Assembly: GCA_025054635.1 (NCBI GenBank) | Contig: JANWZM010000001.1 | Coordinates: 1 to 34,505 of the forward strand | Origin: Thermoflexales bacterium | GTDB taxonomy: Bacteria > Chloroflexota > Anaerolineae > J036 > Brachytrichaceae | DNA: 34,505 nt | Reading direction: 5' to 3' | Shown: positions 11,379 to 12,893 of the stretch, piece by piece | Layout of the letters: each line of letters begins with the position of its first letter | Numbering within the stretch: the first letter of the stretch is position 1 | Position numbers and translations under genes: made by a program | Notes under the pieces: generated by a model | The model's input: only the letters and a program-made list of their open reading frames with translations | Databases searched by the model: none | Told to the model about the DNA's origin: nothing

Positions 11379-12011
11379 ATGGACGACCTCAAGCGGATCG
11401 CTGACGAAGTGCGCGCTTGTCGCTTGTGTCCCCTAGGTGGCATGCGCAAGAACGCTGTCCCCGGCGAAGGCCCAGCAAACGCGGAAGTCATGTTGATCGG
11501 TGAAGGGCCAGGTTTCCACGAAGATCAGCAGGGGCGTCCGTTCGTCGGACCCTCTGGGCAATTCCTCAATGAGCTGCTTGCCATGGCGGGCTACCAGCGA
11601 GAGGAAGTGTTCATCACCAACGTGATCAAATGCCGCCCGCCGGGCAACCGCGATCCGCTGCCCGAGGAGATCGCTGCATGTGCGCACCACCTTGACCGGC
11701 AGATCGCGCTGATCAACCCCAAAGTGATCATCACGCTTGGGCGCTACTCAATGGCGAAGTTCTTCCCTGGCGCGAAGATCAGTGCAATCCATGGGCAGGC
11801 GCGCCGCGTGGACGGTCGAACCGTCGTCGCCATGTTTCACCCTGCGGCAGCGTTGCACCAACCTGCGCTGCGCGCTGCGATCGAAGAGGACTTCCGCCGC
11901 TTGCGCGACATTGTCCGCGAGGCAGAGCAAAAAGCCGAGCAGACAGAACAACCCGCTAAGCGCACCAGTGGCAACAGCGCGTCGGGCGGCGAACAACTCA
12001 GCCTGTTCTAG
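11379..12011 (+). CDS. Type-4 uracil-DNA glycosylase with C-terminal clamp-binding-like motif
   Basis: A 210-residue family-4 UDG that removes uracil from DNA to start base-excision repair. Four Cys for the 4Fe-4S cluster are visible (Cys14, Cys17, Cys85, Cys101), together with the active-site motif GEGPGFHED (41-49), [10 protein letters not shown] and the HPAAALH motif (154-160). After ~175 there is a charged, disordered linker rich in Glu, Lys, Gln and Ser. The protein ends in QLSLF (206-210), which matches the bacterial sliding-clamp-binding consensus QL(S/D)LF. This suggests recruitment to the replisome. Type-4 enzymes are common in thermophiles. menA follows after 6 bases, apparently only a co-transcribed neighbour. 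Confidence 0.92.
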
Positions 12012-12017
12012 GCAGCG

Positions 12018-12893
12018 ATGATCTCGCCTTGGATTCTAGCGGCTCGGCTGCGAACGCTGCCGGCTTCGGTTGCGCCGGTGCTGGTTGGCACTGCGCTGGC
12101 AGTGCGGCAGGGCATGTTTGACCTTCCGATATTCCTGGTCACCCTCGCCACAGCGCTTCTGCTGCAGGTTGGGGCTAACTATGCCAATGATGTCTTCGAC
12201 TACCTGAAGGGTGCAGATCGCCAGCGCGTCGGCCCAATGCGCGTCACGCAGAGCGGGCTGTTGACGCCAAGGCAGATGTTGATTGGGACAGGTGTTGTCT
12301 TTGGGCTGGCGGCACTGTTGGGTGTTTACCTGGTTCTCATCGGAGGTGCACCGATTGCGCTCGTTGGGATTGCCTCAATTGTCTTTGCGCTTGCTTACAC
12401 TGCTGGTCCAGTGCCGCTGGCGTATCGCGGTTTGGGCGAGGTCGCTGCCTTCCTGTTCTTTGGCTTAATTGCTGTCGGCGGCACATACTACCTGCAGACA
12501 AGAACCTACAACGTTGCAGCGCTTGTCGCTGGATTGCCGCAGGCGTGTCTTGCCGCTGCGATCCTGGTTGTGAACAACTTGCGCGACCTCGACACAGATC
12601 GCGCGGCGGGCAAACGCACCCTCGCGGTGCGCTTGGGCGACCGCGCCACGCGGGTTGAGTACCTCGCTCTGCTCAGCGGGGCGTTCCTCTCCTTAGCAGC
12701 ACTTCGGGGCGTCGGCGGGATCGGCTGGGGCTTCGCCTTGCCCTGGCTCGCAGCCCCCCTCGCAGCTAGATTGGGACGGGCGCTTTGGCAAACCCCGCGC
12801 AGCCCAGCGCTGAACCCTATCTTGGCGCAGACTGCCCAGCTCAACCTCGTCTTCGCTGTGCTGCTCGCAGCCGGGCTGCTTCTGCCGATCTAG
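12018..12893 (+). CDS. menA: 1,4-dihydroxy-2-naphthoate prenyltransferase (menaquinone synthesis)
   Basis: A 291-residue UbiA-superfamily membrane prenyltransferase. It has the two Asp-rich motifs: NYANDVFD (54-61) in the first half and NNLRDLDTD (186-194), followed by GKRTLAVRLG, typical of MenA. MenA attaches a polyprenyl chain to dihydroxynaphthoate in the cytoplasmic membrane, giving demethylmenaquinone. About eight hydrophobic helices are seen. No other men gene is in the window, so assignment rests on the motifs; a related UbiA transferase is the alternative. It starts 6 bases after the UDG stop and abuts the convergent methyltransferase stop at 12894. Confidence 0.85.
   Translation: MISPWILAARLRTLPASVAPVLVGTALAVRQGMFDLPIFLVTLATALLLQVGANYANDVFDYLKGADRQRVGPMRVTQSGLLTPRQMLIGTGVVFGLAALLGVYLVLIGGAPIALVGIASIVFALAYTAGPVPLAYRGLGEVAAFLFFGLIAVGGTYYLQTRTYNVAALVAGLPQACLAAAILVVNNLRDLDTDRAAGKRTLAVRLGDRATRVEYLALLSGAFLSLAALRGVGGIGWGFALPWLAAPLAARLGRALWQTPRSPALNPILAQTAQLNLVFAVLLAAGLLLPI

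Follow-up and report, generated by a model that had tools for sequence, protein, structure and literature searches.

Locus and gene assignment

The window, i.e., the whole stretch of 34,505 nucleotides of the Thermoflexales contig that was analyzed, carries a gene for a family-4 (type-4) uracil-DNA glycosylase (UDG), the parts of which are listed in Table 1. The open reading frame starts with an ATG codon. In profile searches the protein scored 194.2 bits against TIGR00758 (UDG_fam4, cut-off 125.3) and 128 bits against PF03167 (cut-off 24), while the archaeal equivalog NF040953 gave 217 bits, under its own cut-off of 250. Motif 1 (GEGPG at residues 41–45, fitting the family form GE(A/G)PG), motif 2 (HPAA, residues 154–157) and the cysteines C14, C17, C85 and C101 occupy columns of alignment A1 that are invariant or nearly so; among 32 diverse orthologues C14, C17 and C101 are invariant and C85 is conserved in at least 90%. 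These four cysteines are presumably the ligands of an Fe-S cluster.

Table 1. Coordinates of the UDG gene, its parts, the downstream gene and two radical-SAM genes referred to in the text.
Feature	Position	Strand	Evidence
Family-4 (type-4) uracil-DNA glycosylase gene, 210 aa	11379..12011	+	ORF; TIGR00758 and PF03167; fold match 4zbx
Ordered catalytic domain, residues 1–189	11379..11945	+	AlphaFold2 pLDDT >93; conserved columns in alignment A1
Disordered linker, residues 190–205	11946..11993	+	pLDDT ~60; A1 columns 189–248 unconserved in sequence and length
C-terminal beta-clamp-binding-type motif QLSLF, residues 206–210	11994..12008	+	A1 columns; position counts
menA (1,4-dihydroxy-2-naphthoate polyprenyltransferase), downstream of UDG	12018..12893	+	NF004751, 319 bits
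rSAM_link_UDG	L358:1504-2703, genome G053	-	TIGR03916 match below cut-off
rSAM_link_UDG, copy in own genome	G000:C46:22297-23349 (L374)		Ends QLALPM

An AlphaFold2 model was built from 32 orthologues and compared with known structures using Foldseek. The best match was the Sulfolobus tokodaii family-4 UDG (4zbx; E 1.7e-22, TM 0.81–0.88), followed by the UDGs of Thermotoga maritima and Thermus thermophilus. Membership of family 4 is confirmed at the level of sequence, and the Fe-S domain is expected from its family to excise uracil. As no other UDG-superfamily gene was found in the organism's draft genome (2.69 Mb, 92.8% complete), this protein is probably its main uracil-DNA glycosylase.

The menA gene starts 6 bases past the UDG gene, and most members of the window's own family share this gene order. 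Both genes are probably co-transcribed, and menA lies outside the mechanism discussed below. The clpX gene adjoins the UDG gene in divergent orientation; a tblastn comparison of clpX with the fetched flanks of relatives, which are short, returned no match.

In the model, the mean pLDDT is at least 93 for residues 1–190 and drops to ~60 for the last 20 residues. No secondary structure is predicted after residue 189 and the tail is left unpacked, so that the C-terminal motif is predicted to be accessible within a flexible region. The first-pass annotation had described a type-4 UDG with a disordered-looking linker and QLSLF as its last five residues. The two profile scores above cut-off and the translated reading frame confirm the first and the last of these statements, and the model agrees with the second, although the linker ahead of QLSLF is short (~16 residues). 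QLSLF fits the pattern Q-aliphatic-x-[LM]-[FL] that known clamp ligands follow (PMC11139829) and is close to its optimum, QL[SD]LF. The tail does not match the PIP box Qxx[ILM]xx[FYW][FYW]; it is a pentapeptide of the bacterial type ending at F210.

The C-terminal motif is conserved across Chloroflexota

Of 60 near relatives, 59 had an orthologue or homologue of the UDG, as did 149 of 151 genomes drawn phylum-wide; relatives carrying names were Thermoflexales and Candidatus Roseilinea (Chloroflexota). From both genome sets and from named genome contigs, 198 distinct Chloroflexota orthologues could be read to the C-terminus. Ninety-two of them end in exactly QLSLF, 134 in QLxLF and 140 in Q[LM]xLF, and the pattern Q-aliphatic-x-[LM]-[FL] is present near the C-terminus in 182. 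When the last 40 residues of each orthologue were shuffled 2000 times, terminal QLxLF occurred on average 0.006 times and Q-aliphatic-x-[LM]-[FL] 1.4 times (maximum 7). With a more permissive motif (QxxL/M/F-F/L/W, at the end or at most 12 residues from it) the count rises to 194 of 198. An origin of the tail by chance or as an artefact of metagenome assembly is ruled out by the 198 orthologues and the shuffles. The conservation of the tail in relatives, which the first-pass annotation had proposed to check, thus extends beyond close relatives to the whole phylum.

The motif positions were counted in 195 orthologues. Q stands at position 1 in all 195 and L or M follows in 188. Position 3 varies freely (S, R, T, N and others), position 4 takes L, M or F with a single I, and position 5 takes F or L and rarely W. 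In alignment A1, Q206 is invariant, and L207 and F210 are conserved in at least 90%. The residues tolerated at each position match the published grammar of known clamp ligands (PMC11139829). At the DNA level, the 92 exact copies of QLSLF are encoded by 74 different 15-mers, which indicates that selection acts on the peptide. Judged from these sequences, a clamp-binding-type peptide is kept by strong purifying selection.

Conservation of a C-terminus could also reflect common descent or a role in packing of the fold, without any binding partner. Indeed, all cases belong to essentially one orthologous group. However, the residues in front of the motif have diverged beyond alignment, with a distance of 36 to 101 residues (median 45) from the motif-2 histidine to the motif glutamine and tail segments that consist to 90% of P/E/K/S/Q/A/D/G/T/N/R, whereas the five motif residues stayed. 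In addition, AlphaFold2 does not pack the tail onto the domain, and in the crystal structures of the T. maritima and S. tokodaii family-4 UDGs the chain stops with the domain and lacks the motif. Descent or packing is therefore considered very unlikely.

A conserved hydrophobic C-terminus might instead serve as a degradation or quality-control tag, i.e., a C-degron for ClpXP or a similar protease. In 171 of 195 orthologues the motif closes the protein, and the neighboring clpX is divergent; both would suit such a function, but the other 24 orthologues have 1–10 residues past the motif, and degrons usually require a free end. Moreover, the invariant residue is the glutamine at position -5 and not one of the last two residues, and substitutions in the motif follow the pattern seen in clamp ligands. 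The proximity of clpX does not indicate targeting, and clpX was not matched in the short flanks of relatives. Taken together, this makes a degron extremely unlikely.

The motif is clearly absent from four of the 198 orthologues (L024, L029, L230 and L234), two of which belong to the window's own family. L024 contains at most a degenerate QRNFL. These four orthologues suggest that a clamp link is dispensable in some lineages. A frameshift was considered for L024 and L029, but other downstream frames do not restore the motif; the loss looks real in both, although a sequencing error further upstream may still account for it.

One orthologue (L048, G023:C78), encoded on the minus strand in a frame of 559 aa, has an in-frame insert of ~350 aa exactly ahead of the Fe-S cysteine equivalent to C85. 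The insert begins with C and ends with HN. Its ends are Hint-like, with PF14890 and the Hint models scoring under their cut-offs, and it contains a DUF559-like endonuclease region. From its sequence, the insert is a probable intein.

Distribution outside the orthologous group

In the same Chloroflexota genomes, none of 20 paralogous UDGs carries a real clamp motif; the only match to the regular expression, QALLL, lies inside a helix-like stretch. The motif is also absent from 16 type-4/UdgX UDGs from Clostridia, Actinomycetota, Cyanobacteria, Nitrospirota, Proteobacteria, haloarchaea and phages, in a comparison in which other bacterial phyla were represented by plasmid and phage records only.

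Viral type-4 UDGs were collected by an alignment-based scan of viral contigs, after a single-sequence scan had given no match. The motif was found in one of 73 proteins, some of which are fused to DNA polymerase or truncated at contig ends. This protein (L244, on IMGVR_UViG_3300009620_001209) ends in QMELF and scores closest to the Chloroflexota group, and the contig possibly belongs to a phage with a gene taken from its host. Many of the viral domains (L246, L247, L250, L262 and others) lie in frames of ~800–1000 aa that resemble annotated phage DNA-polymerase fusions.

On a FastTree tree of the catalytic domain with 265 rows, the details of which are soft, seven changes are needed to explain the tail trait, and the Chloroflexota rows make up nearly one side of a branch.

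QLxLF could be rejected as a common C-terminus: in five genomes, the DNA pattern encoding Q-L-x-L-F-stop was matched 1–8 times each, about as often as reversed-pattern controls. It occurs five times in the 2.69-Mb genome of this organism, where no credible gene other than the UDG ends with it. In the four other Chloroflexota genomes, the credible genes ending in QLxLF were the UDG and one radical-SAM protein.

A clamp-like C-terminus was also observed in most of 30 Chloroflexota copies of rSAM_link_UDG, a putative DNA modification/repair radical-SAM protein whose match to TIGR03916 is below cut-off. The C-termini include QLHLF, QMNLF, QLSLW, QLALF, QLRLF and QLPLF. This makes it a candidate for a second repair protein carried on the clamp.

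The cognate sliding clamp

The genome encodes a single DnaN (TIGR00663, 272 bits). Its peptide pocket was compared with that of E. coli DnaN, the positions of which were taken in part from PMC11139829. L155, T172, G174, R176, L177, P242, N320, Y323, M362, P363 and M364 are kept, whereas H175F, R246S and R365N are changed and V247I and V360L are conservative replacements. Nearly all core pocket residues are therefore shared with E. coli DnaN. The organism's own DnaE carries an internal QGMLF, as would be expected if this lineage uses the usual clamp motif. DinB was considered as a second clamp ligand and rejected, as no DinB was found in this draft genome; the Y-family polymerase profile PF00817 gave no match at E<=0.001 in the 92.8%-complete draft. 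The QLSLF peptide of B. subtilis PolC has a KD of 3.8 uM for B. subtilis DnaN and binds more tightly to the clamp of E. coli (PMC12309361).

Discussion

From the conserved motif and the modeled tail, it is very probable that this housekeeping family-4 UDG is tethered to the replication sliding clamp via its QLSLF tail; the replisome tethering inferred in the first-pass annotation is thereby supported. The Fe-S catalytic domain would excise uracil, while the flexible, compositionally biased linker of variable length would present the C-terminal QLSLF. Given the motif, the pocket and their conservation, QLSLF is predicted to dock in the hydrophobic pocket of DnaN. Docking would concentrate the UDG on clamps at and behind the replication fork, a zone in which dUMP is misincorporated and cytosine is deaminated in exposed single strands. 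It may thereby speed the removal of uracil from new DNA, and the abasic site may be passed to other clamp-bound repair factors. The tail trait would be ancestral to, or very old within, Chloroflexota.

The tail might be a clamp ligand that serves hand-off or restricts repair and not uracil scanning coupled to the fork. The UDG would then be placed on clamps left at nicks or gaps together with Pol I, ligase and AP endonuclease. Sliding clamps persist behind the replication fork, which suits such a role. A further point in its favor is the precedent of mycobacterial Nei2 and XthA, base-excision-repair enzymes that work with the beta clamp (PMC9690074); these enzymes and their fold differ from the UDG, and the Nei2 motif was described as ‘peculiar’ and lies near the dimer interface (PMC9690074). 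However, the docking step is common to the fork-coupled model, and sequence does not separate fork coupling from hand-off at gap-filling clamps. Hand-off or restriction in place of fork-coupled scanning is possible but rather unlikely, and tethering of uracil repair to replication is the preferred reading.

C-terminal clamp motifs are known in polymerases: B. subtilis PolC ends in QLSLF and E. coli Pol II in QLGLF, and Pol IV also has such a motif (PMC12309361, PMC11139829). These pentapeptides are identical or nearly identical to that of the UDG, which is not a polymerase. A functional parallel is found in archaea, where the family-4 UDGs of Pyrobaculum aerophilum, Sulfolobus and Pyrococcus furiosus bind PCNA through PIP boxes (PMC6202378). 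They belong to the same enzyme family and follow the same logic of a short clamp-binding peptide, but theirs is a PIP box directed at PCNA, whereas the Chloroflexota UDG would use an extreme C-terminal QLxLF for DnaN. No tail of this kind is present in the UDG of S. tokodaii, to which the closest solved structure belongs. Human UNG2, cited in PMC6202378 as linked to PCNA, likewise combines a UDG with a sliding clamp, but it is a family-1 UDG and the clamp is eukaryotic PCNA. The comparison with PCNA-linked UDGs that was drawn in the first-pass annotation thus holds as an analogy: here the peptide is QLxLF and no PIP box, and the clamp is a different one. In UNG2, the PIP box sits at the N-terminus.

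Coupling of UDGs to the clamp is established in archaea and eukaryotes. For bacterial UDGs, type-4 enzymes included, no description of binding to the beta clamp was found in the open literature, and neither ‘uracil’ nor ‘glycosylase’ appears in a 2024 review of the beta clamp (PMC11139829). On the sequences and the model, the protein is best read as a phylum-wide clamp-tethered UDG that parallels the UDG-PCNA link in bacteria by convergence. There is perhaps an even chance that a dedicated tail on the main family-4 UDG links uracil excision with the replisome throughout Chloroflexota, in convergence with the UDG-PCNA coupling of archaea and eukaryotes, and that this link forms part of a wider clamp-borne toolkit for uracil and base repair, to which the clamp motif of rSAM_link_UDG would also point.

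Like that of archaea and human cells, uracil repair across Chloroflexota is thus probably linked to replication by a tether. The phylum-wide motif makes the coupling of bacterial uracil repair to replication directly testable, and it suggests that the link between UDGs and sliding clamps has more than one evolutionary origin, with clamps and peptides that differ.
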